NCBI RefSeq assembly: GCF_007004725.1
Contig: NZ_ML660160.1
Span: forward strand, 434,001 to 498,000
Length of the DNA: 64,000 nt
Direction: 5' to 3'
From: Aliikangiella coralliicola
GTDB lineage: Bacteria; Pseudomonadota; Gammaproteobacteria; Enterobacterales; Kangiellaceae
The translations under genes and the position numbers were made by a program. The notes under the pieces were generated by a model. The model saw only the letters and a list, made by a program, of their open reading frames with translations. It was not told the DNA's origin and ran no database searches. Shown here one piece after another: positions 49,957 through 57,569 of this stretch (the first letter of the stretch is position 1; the number at the start of each line of letters is the position of its first letter).

Positions 49957-50468
49957 GGCGTACCTTTTAATCAAAAATAAACTGATTGATTGAGCCAGTT
50001 GACTTAAATAGTCGACTCCAACTGAGATTGTCACGCTCGAAGGCTTTTGACTTTCTCTGGAAAATTGAGGCGCGAATTATAACAAAAACCAACCATTTTA
50101 GTGAAATGAGACCTTGAGGATTGACCAGTTTACCCTTACTTTTCCGGCTTATGGTTCCCGAAAATAGTTGGCTCGAAGGGTATTGTTTGAGAGCGAGACT
50201 GTGTGCGTGCTTATGTTCCGTAGCGTAAAGTAATCTTTTTTTTCGTTCGGTAAAATTCAATATGCGTTAGTTAAAAACGTGGCAATATTTCCAACAAAAT
50301 CGCTGAAAAATTAAACACAATTCGTGTGTAGGGTTAATTTACGGTTAAAAATTCCTTCCTGCGATAATCAAATTCAGGCGGAATTTTCAAATCTTCAGTA
50401 AGATGCTTACCAAAGTTCCGCGAAAGTTAGAGATACTATCGACGGACTTCGGCAAGCCAATCGGTTAA
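49957..50468. other. Control region of icmF
   Basis: 512 bases. The icmF promoter is placed here. A 97-codon frame on the minus strand (49967-50260) reads as unstructured, basic sequence and was rejected. The rest holds no visible gene. Confidence 0.45.
50076..50084 (-). promoter_or_regulatory. Extended -10 promoter of icmF
   Basis: On the minus strand TGT-TATAAT gives an extended -10 element about 120 bases before the icmF start. The -35 region is weak. Confidence 0.45.
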
Positions 50469-51296
50469 CTAATCAATGGAAAAAACGTAGTTGCCTAATT
50501 CACCCAGGTTGACTGTCTGATTCCCGGTTTCATTGGGAAAGAGCCGCCTGAAATTCTCTTTAATTGGTGCCAGGTCAAACTGCTTTTCGATTTCAACCAT
50601 AGCTTCACAGTCATCCTGATTTTGATAACCAATAGTGTAGTTGGCTTGCGGTGGCGCTGATTCATTGAAGTCACTATCGACATATAAGCTGAATTCGTGA
50701 GTACCACAGCCACCGGCAACTTCAAAAAGGAGTGTCAAGGTATCATCTTCAATACTCTTGCTTTTGAGTTGATAAGGTTCCACCAGAATTGAAATCACCG
50801 CGAGATCAACTATTTGCGCCGGCTCAATATGAAAGGTTGCTAATTCATCAAGGCCGCCGCACTCGCCTGATAACGCAAACCAGGCGTTAGCAATATCGGC
50901 TTCGCAAACATTACCATAGGTTTTATATCGATCAGTGGGGCAAGGGGTTGTGACACATTGAACACCAGCTAATGGTTCTTTTCCGCACACCGGCTCATAA
51001 CGGGTATCGCAGACACCTTCGCTACAAGTTAGTGCTAACTGTAAATCGAGGCCACAACTCTGCTGATTGGTTTTTAAAATCTCGAGATGGTACATTTTTT
51101 GCCCGTCAGGAAGTTTGATTACGATATTGCCATCGCGAGTAATTTCGTGGGTTGTATTTGAAATGCTTTCGCTGAGCAAAACTGGTTTAGTGATGCCAGT
51201 TGCCTTAACGGTAATTGATTTATTGGAATCTGAATTACTATCAAATTTGCAGCCCGTCAAAGCAATCATTAATAAAATACCGGGGAAATATTTCAT
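50469..51296 (-). CDS. Lipoprotein with a Kazal-like domain
   Basis: A 275-aa protein with a lipobox at LTGC (Cys16). After a Ser/Asn linker a Cys-rich stretch (about 80-150) contains CDTRYEPVCG, TYGNVCEADIANAW and SGECGG. These are the spacing and Tyr/Asn marks of Kazal-type serine-protease inhibitors. The C-terminal half has GGCGTHEF and a paired Cys. It may protect the cell surface from proteases, its own or a host's. It is single and minus-strand, divergent from the transporter gene at 51528. Confidence 0.65.
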   Translation of the reverse strand: MKYFPGILLMIALTGCKFDSNSDSNKSITVKATGITKPVLLSESISNTTHEITRDGNIVIKLPDGQKMYHLEILKTNQQSCGLDLQLALTCSEGVCDTRYEPVCGKEPLAGVQCVTTPCPTDRYKTYGNVCEADIANAWFALSGECGGLDELATFHIEPAQIVDLAVISILVEPYQLKSKSIEDDTLTLLFEVAGGCGTHEFSLYVDSDFNESAPPQANYTIGYQNQDDCEAMVEIEKQFDLAPIKENFRRLFPNETGNQTVNLGELGNYVFSID

Positions 51297-51473
51297 TGAT
51301 TAGTCCTTGTGTTGATTGTGTAAGCTAATTTTATTCCCAGTCAGTTTTTGATGCTGTTAAGCGATTATCCGATGCTGTTAAGTTACTGCAGTGTTTTGTT
51401 AATAATTGTAGGAAGTGTGCGGTCGTACCACTGGCAGGACGGCTTAAATTACGCTTAGTTGCTGATAATGTTG

Positions 51474-51479
51474 TATAAT
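51474..51479 (+). promoter_or_regulatory. -10 element upstream of the transporter-phosphatase pair
   Basis: TATAAT at 51474-51479, 48 bases before the start codon. The -35 region is weak. Confidence 0.35.
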
Positions 51480-51527
51480 TTCGAAAAGATCGAACCTCTA
51501 ATAACGAACAATTAAGGAAATTTGCCT

Positions 51528-53195
51528 ATGCAAGCTGAAGCCTCTCAAAGCCATAGTTGGTGGGAACGCTTGCTTAACCTCATTAGCGTTGTTAAGCCTG
51601 GAGAGGGAAAGAGTTGTATTTTACTAACGCTCAATGCCTGTATTCTAATGTCTGCGTACTACCTGCTTAAGGTGATTCGCGAACCTTTAATATTGGCATA
51701 CGGCGGTGCTGAGTATAAAAGTTACGCCACTGCAATTCAGGCGGGACTGTTGATTTTTATAGTGCCATTGTTTTCGGTGCTGTTTCATCATTTTGCCGAA
51801 AATAAAAATCGTAGCATTATCATTAGTAATGTATTGGCATTTTTTATTTTAAACCTGGTGATGTTCGCCGCGTTGCAATACTTGCAAATCAATGTCGGCA
51901 TGGTGTTTTACATTTGGTTAGGAATTTTTAGCGTGATGGTTGTTGCGCAGTTTTGGGCCTTCGCTGCGGATTTGTACAATGTAAGGAGCGGTCAGCGGTT
52001 GTTTGTTATTTTAGCCGTTGGCGCAACATTTGGTGCCTGGTTAGGTTCTCGAGTTGCCGGACCAATATTCCCTCATGTTGGTATTGTCGGCATTATGATG
52101 TTGGCAGTTGCGTTGTTATTAATCTCTGTTTTTCTTACTCGTCAAACTGATGGGACTATTCCAGAAGCTTCTGCTAATGAAGAGCCGGTCCACCACGAGG
52201 ATGATAGTCATCGATGGTTAGATGGTTTTTTAGTCGTTTTCAAAAATAATTATTTGTTAATGATAGCGACATTTGTTGTCGTTCTGGTTTTTATCAATTC
52301 TACTGGTGAATACATATTGGCTCACCTGGTCAACGAGCATACAAAAGAACTAGTGGCGTCTGGAGAGATAACCGATGTTGAAGCCTGGCAAGGGCAATTT
52401 TATTCGACTTATTATTCCTGGATTACTTTAGGAAGCTTTATTTTACAATTGTTTTTCGTGTCTAGAATTTTCAAGTGGGTTGGTTTGCGTGGCGCGATAC
52501 TGGTTTTGCCGATTATTATGCTAATTGGCTACGGACTAATGCTTTTTATTCCAATATTTTCTTTTATCCGCATTGCAATGATCGCCGAAAATAGTGCCAA
52601 TTATTCGGTACAAAACACCACTCGCCATGCACTATTTTTACCGGTGCCTAGAAAATTAAAGTACTTGGGAAAAACCACTATAGAAACCTTTTTCTATCGT
52701 TTTGGCGACTTGTTATACGGCGCATTTATTTTTGTTGGCATCGAGTATTTTCAGCTTGGCGTGTCCGGTTTTATTTTAAGCAATTTTATCCTGGCGGCAT
52801 GCCTGTTTACGCTAGCATGGAAAGTCGGCCACAATAATTTACTTGAAGTTCAGAAAACGCAAGGAAATTCTCCACCTCAGGTGATGGCGATGATTCCTCA
52901 TTTGCAGATGCCGTCAGGAAGTATGTCAAAATTTAGTATTAGCGAATGTACTTTTGTTGATCCGGATATTGGCGACGCGCTTAAATTTCATGCCCGAAGA
53001 GTATCAGGTCAACCTCTGCCTAAATGGATAAAGTTTGACCGAATGACTCGAACATTTACTTTTAACCCACCGGTAGGGCATGAAGGCGAGTTGAATATTG
53101 AAGTGATTGCATCCGACTTTGAAGGGCTTACGGCCAGCAGTAAAATAAAAGTGACTTTTGTTCATGCACATCTTTTGGAAGGAACAGATCAATGA
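51528..53195 (+). CDS. Nucleotide-carrier-like (Npt1/Npt2, MFS-related) protein with cadherin-like C-terminus
   Basis: About 555 aa. The first 445 residues show about twelve hydrophobic segments. The start (SCILLTLNACILMSAYYLLK, then VIREPLILAYGGAEYKSY) resembles the free-living-bacterial branch of ATP/ADP-translocase-like carriers. Residues about 458-550 form a soluble beta domain: ISECTFVDPDIGDAL, LPKWIKFDRMTRTFTFNPP and LNIEVIASDFEGLTASSKI are hallmarks of dystroglycan-type cadherin-like (CADG) domains. That fusion is unusual. ATG 51528 has AAGGA upstream. Its last bases overlap the phosphatase start (ATGA). The substrate is not proven. Confidence 0.6.
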   Translation: MQAEASQSHSWWERLLNLISVVKPGEGKSCILLTLNACILMSAYYLLKVIREPLILAYGGAEYKSYATAIQAGLLIFIVPLFSVLFHHFAENKNRSIIISNVLAFFILNLVMFAALQYLQINVGMVFYIWLGIFSVMVVAQFWAFAADLYNVRSGQRLFVILAVGATFGAWLGSRVAGPIFPHVGIVGIMMLAVALLLISVFLTRQTDGTIPEASANEEPVHHEDDSHRWLDGFLVVFKNNYLLMIATFVVVLVFINSTGEYILAHLVNEHTKELVASGEITDVEAWQGQFYSTYYSWITLGSFILQLFFVSRIFKWVGLRGAILVLPIIMLIGYGLMLFIPIFSFIRIAMIAENSANYSVQNTTRHALFLPVPRKLKYLGKTTIETFFYRFGDLLYGAFIFVGIEYFQLGVSGFILSNFILAACLFTLAWKVGHNNLLEVQKTQGNSPPQVMAMIPHLQMPSGSMSKFSISECTFVDPDIGDALKFHARRVSGQPLPKWIKFDRMTRTFTFNPPVGHEGELNIEVIASDFEGLTASSKIKVTFVHAHLLEGTDQ

Positions 53196-55039
53196 TGAAA
53201 AAAATAATAAGAATTGTCTTCGTTATTTCCAGCCTTGCTTGTAGTGTTTGGGTAAGTGCTGACAACCAGGTTAGTTTTGAAACTGAGTCTCCGATTTATG
53301 TGGTTGGAGATATCCACGGTGCCTACACTGAAATTCATGCAACACTGAGGCAGCTAAAATTAATTGATGAGCAAGATAAGTGGATTGGCGGCTCTGCTCA
53401 CTTTGTTAGCTTGGGTGATCTCATGGACCGGGGGCCGGCGACGCGAAAAGTGATCGATTTATTTATGCGCCTTCAAGTTGAGGCCATAGCGGCAGGTGGT
53501 CGGTTTCATATTGTGGCAGGAAATCACGAAGTGATGAATTTAATCGGCGACCTTCGTTATGTTTCAGACGAGGAAATTGATGAATTTGCGGCTGATGAAA
53601 CCGATGAAATTCGGCAAGCGGCATACCAAAAATATTTGAAAGTGAATCGTCATACTGATAATGAAAAAACGAAAGCAGAATTTGATCAACAATATAGAAA
53701 AGGATTTTTTGCGCAACAGTTAGCTTATCAACCAACGAGTCATTATGGAAAGTGGCTAATGGAACTACCTTATGTCATAAAAATTAACGAACAGATTTTC
53801 GCCCACGGTGGATTATCAAAAAATGTTAATGGCAAATCATTGGAAGAACTTAACGAAGAATTAAAAGAGACACTGTCTGATTATCTAAAAAGTTGGTTGT
53901 CACTAAACAAAGGCCAGCGGTTAGCATTTTATCCGCCTTATAAACAAAGGGATCACTTTGTTAAACCGTTAAAAAACTCTCGCGGAAAAAAAGCTTATAC
54001 CAAATCGAAAAAGAAGTTACTGCTGTCGAAAAATAGTCCTACCTGGTATCGAGGTAACGCAATTTGTCACCCTTATTTTGAGTCAGATAATCTCAAGCGT
54101 ACACTCAAGCAATGGGATGCGACACGGTTGTGGGTTGGTCATACAACCAGTCAACAGCGTAAACCGCTTGATCGGCTTGACGGTCAGCTGATTATTTTAG
54201 ATACAGGCATGCTAAAACCTTATTATAAAGGTGAGCCTTGGGCGGCTAAAATCGATGAAAATAACGAAGTTACATTTATTAATGGGTTAACCGGCGAAAC
54301 AGCCTCATCGATAACTGCTCCCAATCGCGAGTGGGCAAATCCATACGATATGAGTGATAGTCAGGTTGAAGAGTTTTTGACGACCGCGAAAATGACTCAC
54401 AAAAAAGGAACTAAAGAAGGCATTACCAAACCTTTCAAAGTAACCCTTGAAAAAGAAGGGAAAGTGATCAAAGGGATTTTTAAATATAAAGACTCTTACC
54501 CCGATATTGAGAAAGGGGGGTGGAATAAAGGGAAAGATAAAGCAGATCGATATCAATATGAAGTTGCGGCTTATAAACTTGACAGAATGCTAGGAATTGG
54601 GCTCGTGCCTGTAACAGTAGAGCGGACAATCGAAGGTCGAAAAGGGGCTTTACAATTATGGGTTGATGGTTTGATTTCTGATCTAGTGATGAATGAAGAG
54701 AAAATTTATTATAACGGATATTGCAATCCTCACGACCAAGTGAACTTAATGGATTCATTCGATTATTTAATTATGAATACTGATCGTAACCAATCAAATA
54801 TCATGTATCAGAGGGACGATTGGCAGATCGTTTTTATTGACCACTCGAAAAGTTTTGGTACCAGTGTAAAGCGCCCCAAAATACTCAAGCGAGCCAAGAT
54901 CATTTTGACCGATAAATTTAAATCTGCACTCGAAGAATTAACTTATGAACAGCTACAAACCCTCAAACCGTGGCTTCACACCAAGCAAATTCGAATGCTT
55001 TGGAAGCGCAGAAACAAAATGCTTAAAGGAAAGTTTTAG
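53192..55039 (+). CDS. Exported calcineurin-type phosphatase fused to a kinase-like domain
   Basis: 615 aa. The signal peptide has probable cleavage after VSA (residue 23). The N-terminal metallophosphoesterase has GDIHG (39-43), GDLMDRG (75-81), GNHE (110-113), AHGG (H205) and VGHT (H317), a complete PPP-like metal site resembling Shelph/bacterial PPP enzymes. From about residue 415 a second domain reads VIKGIFKYKD (K431), RYQYEVAAYKLDRMLG (E457), DYLIMNTDRNQSNIMY (D531, N536) and VFIDHSKSFG (D550). This is the ATP-site order of PI3K/Fam20/HipA-type kinases. A phosphatase and a kinase in one exported chain is striking. It is coupled to the carrier gene. Confidence 0.65.
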   Translation: MMKKIIRIVFVISSLACSVWVSADNQVSFETESPIYVVGDIHGAYTEIHATLRQLKLIDEQDKWIGGSAHFVSLGDLMDRGPATRKVIDLFMRLQVEAIAAGGRFHIVAGNHEVMNLIGDLRYVSDEEIDEFAADETDEIRQAAYQKYLKVNRHTDNEKTKAEFDQQYRKGFFAQQLAYQPTSHYGKWLMELPYVIKINEQIFAHGGLSKNVNGKSLEELNEELKETLSDYLKSWLSLNKGQRLAFYPPYKQRDHFVKPLKNSRGKKAYTKSKKKLLLSKNSPTWYRGNAICHPYFESDNLKRTLKQWDATRLWVGHTTSQQRKPLDRLDGQLIILDTGMLKPYYKGEPWAAKIDENNEVTFINGLTGETASSITAPNREWANPYDMSDSQVEEFLTTAKMTHKKGTKEGITKPFKVTLEKEGKVIKGIFKYKDSYPDIEKGGWNKGKDKADRYQYEVAAYKLDRMLGIGLVPVTVERTIEGRKGALQLWVDGLISDLVMNEEKIYYNGYCNPHDQVNLMDSFDYLIMNTDRNQSNIMYQRDDWQIVFIDHSKSFGTSVKRPKILKRAKIILTDKFKSALEELTYEQLQTLKPWLHTKQIRMLWKRRNKMLKGKF

Positions 55040-55093
55040 CAGGCTTTCTAATGGTTAGTAATTGGCTTGAGATAGCCAGTTCACAGTTAAAAA

Positions 55094-55130
55094 TTGTTGA
55101 CCTTTGAGAATAGCCTTCAAAGGTCAACAA
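55094..55130. terminator. Bidirectional hairpin between convergent genes
   Basis: TTGTTGACCTTTGA / TCAAAGGTCAACAA is a perfect 14-bp stem with a nine-base loop, serving the phosphatase-kinase gene and the permease gene. Confidence 0.8.
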
Positions 55131-55154
55131 GGTTTTAAACTTTACCCTCTGGAA

Positions 55155-57569
55155 TTATTCACACCTTAAAACAAAAGCCGGCCGAACACTGGCAGTGTGC
55201 AAGGCGATCGTCAGCACGGTTAACCAGGTTATTACCGATACCACTAGTCCAGCAAGCAAATAGACCGGTAGTGATTGTTCTATACGCTCGTTAAACTGAC
55301 TTAGCCAATCATTGAGCAGGTAAAACGTAAAAGGAAATGCAAAAAGCAAACTGATACCAACCAATAAAATTGATTCTTTGGCGAGCAAGCTTACTAGCGT
55401 CAACCGAGATGCCCCCAGCACTTTTCTGATCGCGACTTCTTGACTTCGACGTTGTGCACTATACGCAGCCAGACCGAACATACCGATGCAGGTAAGAAAT
55501 ACTGCAAGACCAGAAAAAATCGCGACAGTTTTTGCTAAGCGTTTATCTTCATAATATAAAGCAAAATAGTTCGCCTCTACTACCTGTATTTCAACGGGGT
55601 CAATATGCAGTTGTTTACGCATTAACTCGCGAACTTCGTTGTGAAGGGTGATCGAGTCTTGGTCAGAAACTTGCAGGAGAATGGAGTAGACACTGGACCA
55701 TGATAGACCGCAACCAAGAATCGCGGGGGTGTAAGATTCTTTCACAGAGCCTACTTTTATATCTTTAAATACACCAACAATTAATGCGTTGATTTGGTGA
55801 TAGCGCCCCGCCGAAAACTGCCATGTTTTGCCGATAGCTTCATCTGCGTTAGCATATCCCACGGTAGATAAGGCCGATTCAGGGATCATGATTGACATTG
55901 TTTTTGTTTCTTTGTTAAACCAGTCTGAAGTAAATTCTTTCGAGAAGTCTCTACCCGCTACTAATTGTAGGCCAATTGTTTCCGCTGCGTTGTAACCAGT
56001 ACCACCATAACCAATTCCATCAGAGAAAGGCTTTTCACCTGATACGGAGACATTGTATATTCCAGCGTAGAAACTTTTAGTTAATTCAAAGTCTATTGGC
56101 GTTGCTGACTTTACTCCGCTTATTTTGGTAAGCGCCTGGAAAAAGCTATCATTCTCCTGAGCATAAATTTTTTCGTGTGGTGCATCAATCACTTGTAACC
56201 GACTGCTTTTTTCATAGTTGACCGGCAGGTTTTGCAAATGGTCGAATTGCAAATAGAGGTTAACTGCGGCAATGATAAGACCAACAGACAAGCCGGACTG
56301 AAAGACCATAGAGCATTTCCTGACAAACACCGCGGTTTTTCCCCGTTCAAGATCGCCGCTAATGACTCGTTTTAAACTAAATGAAGACATGAATAGTGCG
56401 GGATAAATTCCTGAAATTAATCCTATCAGTAAAGTAACAAACATAACGGGAACGATAATCGAAGACCAGTTGCCAATCGTTAGTTCACGACCCACCAACT
56501 GATTAAATGCAGGTAAAATAAGCTCGACGATACTAGCGGCAATGAGCGCAGAAAATAATGCGAAAATAACAGATTCTCCGAGAAACTGTAGCACCAGTTT
56601 TAAACGTCCAGCACCAAGTACTTTGCGGATGCCAACCTCTTTTGCTCGACGCCCGCCTTGAGCAATACTCATATTGATGTAGTTAAAGCTAGAGATTAAC
56701 AATAATAAAATACTCAGCATAATGGTGATCGAAACTGTATTGGCAGAACCACCAACTTTCATATCGTGTTTGATATTTGGGGCGAGATGAATATCTAATA
56801 ACGGTTGTAGATAAAATTGTAGTTGGTTGATATCCCAACCCCAAATGTCTGCAAAAATCCGACTAGTGGCATCGCTAATTATTTTGATATCGGCGTTTTC
56901 GCTGAGCCTGACATAGGTATAAGAATGGCTACCAATAACGTCGATGTAAGGCGTTGCAGCGATTAAAGAGTTAATCGAGAAGTGGCTGTTGTCAGGCAAA
57001 TCAGAGAATACTGCGACAACAGTCCAGGTGTCATTCGAATTTTTAACTGGTAGCGTTTCGCCAATAATATCGGTAGTGCCGAATAATCGAATGGCCTCTG
57101 ATTCTGATAACGCTAATCTATCAGGATGAGTTAAGGCCTCTGTTAGATTTCCTCGAAGGGTGTTAATTGAAATAAAGTCTTTAATATTTTCCGTCGCGGC
57201 GAAGTTTTTCTCGAGTTTAAAGTACTGGTCGTCTATTTTTACTCTATTTTCTATTAGCCATAAAGTTCTAACCAGTTGAAAAACATCTTCTACACCACTA
57301 AGCTTTTTTAGATGCTGGGTTGCCCTGGGAGTTGAAAGGGGATAATCATTTCCCGTAGGAAGGTGATGTTGGATCAATCGGTAAGTTTGTTTCGCATTGG
57401 GTTGAAACTCGTCATAAGCGTTTTCGTTAATCGCATATAATGCTATCAACAAAGAAGCCGCCATACCAATTGACAACCCTAAAATAGTTAATACGAAATT
57501 GATTTTATCCCGCTTACTTGAACGAAATGCAGTCAGGAGGTAGTTAACAAATAAGCCATCTTTTAACAT
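55155..57569 (-). CDS. MacB/FtsX-type ABC transporter permease
   Basis: An 804-aa permease with two FtsX-like halves. Each has a helix, a large periplasmic MacB core domain and three helices. NFVLTILGLSIGMAASLLIA is helix 1, GGRRAKEVGIRKVLGAGRLKL and SQRRSQEVAIRKVLGASRLTL are the two family coupling motifs, and the ends are conserved. It overlaps the ATPase gene by seven bases. Members export peptides or act as mechanotransmitters; the substrate is unknown. Confidence 0.9.
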   Translation of the reverse strand: MLKDGLFVNYLLTAFRSSKRDKINFVLTILGLSIGMAASLLIALYAINENAYDEFQPNAKQTYRLIQHHLPTGNDYPLSTPRATQHLKKLSGVEDVFQLVRTLWLIENRVKIDDQYFKLEKNFAATENIKDFISINTLRGNLTEALTHPDRLALSESEAIRLFGTTDIIGETLPVKNSNDTWTVVAVFSDLPDNSHFSINSLIAATPYIDVIGSHSYTYVRLSENADIKIISDATSRIFADIWGWDINQLQFYLQPLLDIHLAPNIKHDMKVGGSANTVSITIMLSILLLLISSFNYINMSIAQGGRRAKEVGIRKVLGAGRLKLVLQFLGESVIFALFSALIAASIVELILPAFNQLVGRELTIGNWSSIIVPVMFVTLLIGLISGIYPALFMSSFSLKRVISGDLERGKTAVFVRKCSMVFQSGLSVGLIIAAVNLYLQFDHLQNLPVNYEKSSRLQVIDAPHEKIYAQENDSFFQALTKISGVKSATPIDFELTKSFYAGIYNVSVSGEKPFSDGIGYGGTGYNAAETIGLQLVAGRDFSKEFTSDWFNKETKTMSIMIPESALSTVGYANADEAIGKTWQFSAGRYHQINALIVGVFKDIKVGSVKESYTPAILGCGLSWSSVYSILLQVSDQDSITLHNEVRELMRKQLHIDPVEIQVVEANYFALYYEDKRLAKTVAIFSGLAVFLTCIGMFGLAAYSAQRRSQEVAIRKVLGASRLTLVSLLAKESILLVGISLLFAFPFTFYLLNDWLSQFNERIEQSLPVYLLAGLVVSVITWLTVLTIALHTASVRPAFVLRCE

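Follow-up and report, generated by a model that had tools for sequence, protein, structure and literature searches.

A 64,000-nucleotide stretch of the Aliikangiella coralliicola genome (7.04 Mb; contig NZ_ML660160.1, positions 434,001 to 498,000, hereafter the window) contains two overlapping genes whose products, we propose, form a periplasmic phosphorylation module in which an NTT-like carrier swaps ATP for ADP and thereby feeds an exported enzyme composed of a phosphatase domain and a FAM20/PI4K-like kinase domain. We assign this reading a probability of about 0.7 from sequence comparisons and predicted structures. Among relatives of the enzyme the carrier gene appears to follow the integrity of the kinase site and not that of the phosphatase site, which supports the suggestion of an earlier note, made from this DNA alone, that the carrier might supply the kinase with ATP.

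A carrier gene overlaps the gene for a putative exported phosphatase-kinase

Both genes lie on the forward strand. The carrier gene (51528..53195) begins with an ATG at 51528, encodes 555 amino acids and ends with a stop codon at 53195; a Shine-Dalgarno-like AAGGAA (51514..51519, +) stands 8 nucleotides before its start. The fusion gene (53192..55039) begins with an ATG at 53192, encodes 615 amino acids and ends with a stop codon at 55039. The two therefore share the ATGA that the earlier note had described (53192..53195, +), and this overlap of stop and start codons suggests translational coupling. Promoter-like sites (8, against a shuffled mean of 8.9) and terminator-like sites (6, against 3.2, standard deviation 1.9) were uninformative, and an Rfam search of 50300-55300 gave no match at the gathering score.

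A signal peptide, a complete metallophosphoesterase site and kinase-like motifs had all been claimed for the second gene product, and all three are seen in the 615-residue enzyme. Its N-terminus is signal-peptide-like (residues 1-23; 53192..53260, +), reading by eye as KKIIR, a hydrophobic stretch and VSA preceding D24; by a simple rule, a hydrophobic N-terminal stretch was found in 85 of 87 related fusions as compared to 31 of 450 internal control segments. The following domain (residues 30-365; 53279..54286, +) is predicted to be a Shewanella-like (SLP) metallophosphatase. Pfam Metallophos is matched above cut-off (5.5e-13), the nearest PDB sequence is the Shewanella phosphatase 2z72 (1.7e-23), and SLP phosphatases rank first in a Foldseek search with the AlphaFold model of the enzyme (2z72 at 1.5e-18; mean predicted local distance difference test score (pLDDT) 92.8, predicted template-modelling score (pTM) 0.89). 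The metallophosphatase positions D40, H42, D76, D79, R80, N111, H112, H205 and H317 are all present. A separate gene of the same genome (G000:C1:185262-186020, L081) codes for a stand-alone SLP phosphatase, 372 amino acids long.

The C-terminal domain (residues 385-613; 54344..55030, +) is FAM20/PI4K-like. It holds the residue set K431, E457, D531, R532, N536 and D550, in which K431, E457, D531, N536 and D550 are presumably the catalytic and metal-binding positions of a kinase. Direct reading and alignment place the ATP-site lysine K431 at 54482..54484 (+), the catalytic loop DRNQSN, D531 to N536, at 54782..54799 (+), and D550, the metal-binding Asp of an IDH motif, at 54839..54841 (+). Pfam PI3_PI4_kinase (PF00454) is matched over residues 517-586 only (2.3e-7; 31.4 bits against a cut-off of 27.1), and a match to HipA_2 falls below cut-off. 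We call the domain FAM20-like rather than a FAM20 member because its score for Fam20C (PF06702), 18.8 bits, lies below the cut-off of 26.8. The best six PDB matches of a kinase-domain profile, starting from 2.6e-7, are FAM20A (two entries), glycosaminoglycan xylosylkinase, FAM20C, Protein H03A11.1 and DrFam20C1; we take the xylosylkinase and Protein H03A11.1 to be FAM20 proteins as well. Among the fold matches listed for the enzyme model, the best other than phosphatases are DrFam20C1 (5yh0) and PI4K-II-alpha with ADP (4hnd), both at 1.1e-7. By alignment and model, the domain appears to have both a kinase fold and ATP-site residues, features whose absence the earlier note had named as fatal to its proposal.

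The carrier consists of a membrane domain (residues 23-446; 51594..52865, +) and a C-terminal Ig-like domain of the He_PIG type (residues 458-543; 52899..53156, +) that had previously gone unmentioned; the latter is matched at E 8e-9, above the Pfam cut-off, and is matched in 14 of 33 family members. The AlphaFold models of both proteins, which the earlier note had recommended, were built from alignments of the window and its relatives' loci and are confident, that of the carrier having a mean pLDDT of 91.7 and a pTM of 0.88. Twelve membrane helices, as originally proposed, were read by eye from its helix list, as compared to only 11 from a crude segment finder. If there are 12 helices and the N-terminus is inside, the Ig-like domain would be cytoplasmic, an unusual location for a domain of this type.

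The proposed likeness to ATP/ADP translocases likewise stands, by way of the family profile and the fold. In a Foldseek search of the model against 350,542 PDB chains, entries 9j3l, 9j3n and 9j3m came out on top (8.9e-10 to 2.3e-9), comprising ATP-bound AtNTT1, ATP-bound C. pneumoniae NTT1 and ADP/Pi-bound AtNTT1; the next match was SPNS2 (3.1e-8), with generic MFS proteins from there. The TM-score to the NTT fold reaches 0.75 by target length, at about 15% identity in the fold alignment. Nearest to the carrier, then, are solved structures bound to ATP or ADP, and not ones that would suggest a substrate unrelated to nucleotides. An alignment of 33 carriers (32 of 41 carrier open reading frames, plus that of the window) gave a profile whose first-ranked PDB matches are ADP,ATP carrier proteins (9j3n, 1.2e-29; 9j3j, 2.7e-20), and 29 of the 33 members match PF03219 (TLC) at E up to 0.1. 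In Pfam the window carrier alone matches MFS_1 below cut-off; the paired carriers of two other genomes (G386, G409) exceed the PF03219 cut-off with summed segments, and that of a third (G456) falls below it. Across all 33 rows E26, K48, R157, Q307, Y359, Y379 and R391 are invariant, and position 51 is always R or K. Moreover, basic residues of both 9j3n and 9j3j stand opposite K48, R51, R157 and K378 in the alignment, and an Arg of 9j3n only opposite R391; these basic helix positions presumably bind nucleotide. The genome also encodes a remote paralogue of the carrier (G000:C3:2770-3969; L005, L082), of a widespread type scoring about 200-250 bits, which may have another substrate. At one locus (L218) such a paralogue adjoins a NAD-epimerase-family protein with a Tat-signal-like start, and the neighbour at L219 looks similar.

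The gene pair recurs in three arrangements

Across 197 genomes of the order, 14 carriers, the window's included, match the window carrier at E 6e-72 or better, and 13 of them abut an SLP-kinase fusion with gaps of 0-22 bp. The arrangement varies: carrier then kinase, as in the window, in one pair; tail-to-tail in nine (eight from the genus g273, plus G386); and kinase then carrier in three (G409, G463, G429). The exception, G395, has its carrier between ruvC-like and ruvA-like genes, and its window-like kinase is truncated by the end of another contig. Conservation of the two genes as neighbours, the first check that the earlier note had called for, thus extends to 13 genomes of the order, and to other phyla as well.

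A scan of genome contigs with the single window protein as query found no relative. A second scan, using a kinase alignment and a pattern with the catalytic Asp, yielded 74 loci (41 fusions and 33 solo kinases), which are biased to intact kinases because of that Asp and were kept out of the intact/decayed comparison below; these records and the order sample have some genomes in common. The fusion alignment comprises 38 of the 41 fusions plus the window, and the kinase alignment holds intact kinases only. A carrier lies within 1.1 kb of 27 of the 41 fusions, 25 of these within 80 bp, and in the fetched stretch of 3 of the 33 solo-kinase loci. Thirteen genomes with the 14 carrier-less fusions were searched: nine contain, elsewhere, a carrier scoring 389 bits or more, and the other four (L088, L096, L110, L114) contain none at that level. 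In one genome (L111) the distant carrier in fact abuts a second intact fusion (L207). Unfused parts occur together too. For example, a locus from Aminicenantes, another phylum, has an unfused SLP phosphatase, a degenerate kinase, a carrier and an intact kinase in a row, at most 34 bp apart (L130), and at three loci the neighbour of the kinase is an NTT-HEAT protein (L142, L143, L150), with a cNMP-binding domain as well in the first two. Many stand-alone FAM20-like kinases with signal-like starts were encountered in Acidobacteria, Latescibacterota and relatives (L121 to L161), several of them next to a separate SLP phosphatase (L138, L139, L146, L161).

The carrier accompanies fusions with an intact kinase site

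We scored 87 fusions for the carrier, searched about 6 kb to each side or less at contig ends, and for the kinase site, counted as intact when K431, D531, R532, N536 and D550 were all kept. The 87 derive from 90 fusion reading frames after exclusion of one cut by a contig end (L338) and two remote SLP proteins with no kinase match (L079, L080); frames below 450 amino acids (e.g. in L337, L339) were uncounted, and fragments in G659:C186 and two in G759 were left out. Part of this sample comes from orders chosen for already holding family members, so it is not a random one. A carrier stands alongside 20 of the 30 fusions with an intact kinase, always within 50 bp of a fusion, as compared to 1 of the 57 with a decayed kinase (Fisher p 2e-11, uncorrected for kinship). 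When only loci with 1.5 kb or more of sequence to either side are counted, the figures are 18 of 27 and 1 of 50.

The phosphatase site behaves differently. All nine scored positions are kept in 84 of the 87 fusions, including every one of the 57 with a decayed kinase. The three others have intact kinases: D79 is changed in G636 and G648, which keep the carrier, and H42 in G635, which has no adjacent carrier. Therefore, since all but one of the fusions with decayed kinases lack the carrier yet keep their phosphatase residues, the carrier tracks the kinase and not the phosphatase. Within g273, three species (G374, G397, G438) nested among intact and paired ones have neither the carrier nor the kinase site.

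Related carriers adjoin other exported enzymes

In a class sample of 369 genomes, where only the best three candidates per genome were scored and carriers may thus be missed, 10 yielded a total of 11 carriers with E 1e-90 or better. Their neighbours are the FAM20-like fusion of the window in one case, a CotH kinase in three and a PPDK-type protein, 3-5 kb away, in two; no such neighbour was seen for the remaining five, two of which lie on contigs shorter than 4 kb. A four-base overlap joins the CotH gene to the carrier gene at each of the three CotH loci (L230, L231, L232). One of these, L230, additionally encodes a glycosyltransferase and a GH113 protein and in this resembles the stalk cluster of Zetaproteobacteria. 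Conversely, a search for CotH returned 23 loci in 17 of the 369 genomes, and a carrier lies directly downstream of five (L343, L344, L345, L351, L354), a count that would miss carriers beyond the 1.5 kb flanks taken; L344, L345 and L354 are the loci L230, L231 and L232 again, and the carrier of L343 is split over two frames.

The PPDK assignment comes from Pfam PPDK_N in L201, L205 and L234, and from a profile built from L201, L205 and L212 that matches L204, L233, L392, L393, L395, L396 and L399. The PPDK-type proteins near carriers of this family are about 970 amino acids long and, by eye, have signal-like starts wherever the start lies on the contig. Next to most of them is an exported partner (about 420-490 amino acids) that, by eye, carries P[IL]DG and IRR close to its start; for two of these partners Pfam gave no match. 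Ten further carriers were examined, with a PPDK-type neighbour in three cases, an SLP-kinase fusion in one and none of the sought kinds in six. At one locus (L209) a carrier of the same family neighbours a stand-alone metallophosphatase whose N-terminus is signal-like. One carrier clade thus accompanies three unrelated exported enzymes for which ATP would be the common need. This company is the strongest hint to the substrate, and from it we infer ATP.

Discussion

In the proposed module the carrier would sit in the inner membrane and pass cytoplasmic ATP out while taking periplasmic ADP, perhaps ADP plus phosphate, in. The FAM20/PI4K-like domain would use the exported ATP to phosphorylate an envelope protein or glycan, and the SLP phosphatase domain would strip phosphates from the same or related targets. 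What we infer in this scheme is that ATP is the substrate, which way it is transported, that the kinase is catalytically active, what it acts on, and that the two domains work as writer and eraser. The pseudokinase lineages, in turn, suggest that the phosphatase domain is useful on its own once the ATP supply is gone.

Several results weigh against the module. With regard to the carrier, the window protein alone has no match to PF03219 up to E 10, 23 of the 33 family members also match the generic MFS_1, and in the fold search two other NTT entries come no higher than ranks 9 and 12, among MFS proteins. The remote paralogue of the same genome passes the PF03219 cut-off at 32.5 bits, so likeness to TLC is not special to kinase-paired carriers. 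With regard to the correlation, carrier and kinase-site traits each change seven times on a quick tree (which kept L079 and L080 and so has 58 unpaired decayed rows as compared to 56 in the count), giving seven independent contrasts on all branches and two on well-supported ones; because there are only two of the latter, the correlation is not significant once phylogeny is considered. One genome (G682, L331), a congener of G636 and G648, keeps the carrier beside a decayed kinase site (NAVHDLGT). Ten genomes with intact kinases have no adjacent carrier: five hold one of at least 330 bits elsewhere, one (G680) a partial match of 187.8 bits elsewhere, and four (G371, G703, G697, G670), of which three are less than 90% complete, no carrier of this type in the genome. 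Furthermore, such a carrier is present in 7 of the 49 genomes whose kinases are all decayed. It lies beside a PPDK-type protein in four of these (G634, G646, G771, G727), is probably a contamination of the assembly in G768, whose carrier contig (C29, L400) has the same reading-frame starts, lengths and scores as G647:C34 (L397) from a different family, and is unexplained in G714 and G332. In G634, G646 and G714 the carrier is 8-10 kb from the decayed fusion, just beyond the 6 kb searched.

These points have to be set beside other ways of accounting for the pair. The exported phosphatase might serve in salvage, removing phosphate from an environmental phosphometabolite to give a product that the carrier would import, with the kinase domain secondary. 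This would fit the retention of the phosphatase positions in nearly all fusions, the separate metallophosphatase at L209 and the fact that characterized parasite NTTs are importers (PMC5381601, in the part consulted here). We nevertheless regard it as improbable because of a double dissociation, in which the carrier goes with the kinase site and not with the phosphatase site: no carrier lies within about 6 kb of 56 of the 57 fusions that combine a decayed kinase with a complete set of phosphatase positions, and two fusions whose kinase is intact but whose phosphatase has a changed ligand retain theirs. The pairing of carriers with CotH and PPDK-type proteins also tells against salvage.

The carrier might instead move another donor or small molecule, such as NAD, a nucleotide sugar or another phosphometabolite, which the enzyme would use directly or in, for example, AMP transfer. 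Some NTTs do move NAD (according to part of PMC5381601), and at about 15% identity to solved NTTs the window carrier leaves room for this; however, the enzyme has the residue set of FAM20/PI4K-type phosphotransferases, and three unrelated enzyme types would most simply share ATP as their substrate, which makes such a donor an unlikely choice. Least credible to us, and very improbable, is that adjacency reflects inherited linkage without functional coupling, the kinase being vestigial and the carrier independent. The independent evolutionary contrasts are few and 57 of the 87 scored fusions are pseudokinases, as such linkage would allow, but it would hardly produce three gene orders with near-zero spacing, recurrence in other phyla with unfused parts included, and catalytic residues kept in 20 of 21 carrier-paired fusions. 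We therefore continue to favour a module in which the carrier feeds the exported kinase with ATP.

All of its parts belong to known families. The carrier resembles NTT/TLC proteins (PF03219; AtNTT1, Chlamydia pneumoniae NTT1) in its 12-helix fold, its best profile and structure matches and the conserved charged residues of its helices, and differs from them in its free-living host, its Ig-like C-terminal domain, its sequence identity of only about 15% and its exported-kinase neighbour. The enzyme resembles the FAM20 kinases of the secretory pathway, which act outside the cytosol, in its predicted export, its catalytic residue types and its best profile matches; unlike them it scores below the Fam20C cut-off, is bacterial, is fused to a phosphatase and has its own carrier gene adjoining. 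The SLP domain is like Shewanella phosphatase 2z72 over its whole length and in its metal site, although 2z72 stands alone and the window domain is fused to a kinase. FAM20 kinases of the eukaryotic secretory pathway also need ATP to be carried across a membrane, and the proposed module finds its nearest analogue in the ATP transporters of the eukaryotic ER/Golgi. A further parallel, in which an NTT-like carrier again lies close to an exported kinase, is offered by CotH kinases near ATP-ADP antiporters, but these are of a different kinase family and have no SLP phosphatase.

In the literature, other NTTs also have C-terminal add-on domains, HEAT or cNBD, and most characterized members come from parasites and plastids; the family is widespread in free-living bacteria, where it is mostly uncharacterized, and experiments cover a small part of its diversity (PMC5381601, in part). 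Neither 'kinase' nor 'periplasm' occurs in the main text of that paper. In the Zetaproteobacteria stalk cluster a CotH domain is found in Sfz6 and an ATP-ADP antiporter in an adjacent cassette, and the portion of PMC8250860 consulted here does not link the two. The excerpts available to us of PMC7948968 treat eukaryotic Fam20, and in those of PMC12599244, on bacterial pseudokinases, Fam20 appears only in the references. We found no description of a carrier with an exported kinase-phosphatase system in open-licence PMC text, in line with the earlier note, which knew of no bacterial system with such a layout, and it is this dedicated module, rather than its parts, that appears to be new.

Exported kinases are puzzling because ATP is assumed to be absent from the periplasm. 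A link between a carrier and such a kinase would answer two questions at once, that of exported kinases and that of NTTs in free-living bacteria. The co-travel of the gene pair across genomes suggests export of ATP by some free-living bacteria for phosphorylation in the periplasm. If true, bacteria could reversibly phosphorylate proteins or glycans of their envelope. Somewhat better than even, in our estimate, is the chance that NTT-family carriers are a general periplasmic ATP line for FAM20-like, CotH and PPDK-type enzymes, and that carrier loss goes with pseudokinase decay. Such a general supply line, if true, would contradict the rule that ATP is out of reach for periplasmic enzymes and would account for NTTs outside parasites and plastids.

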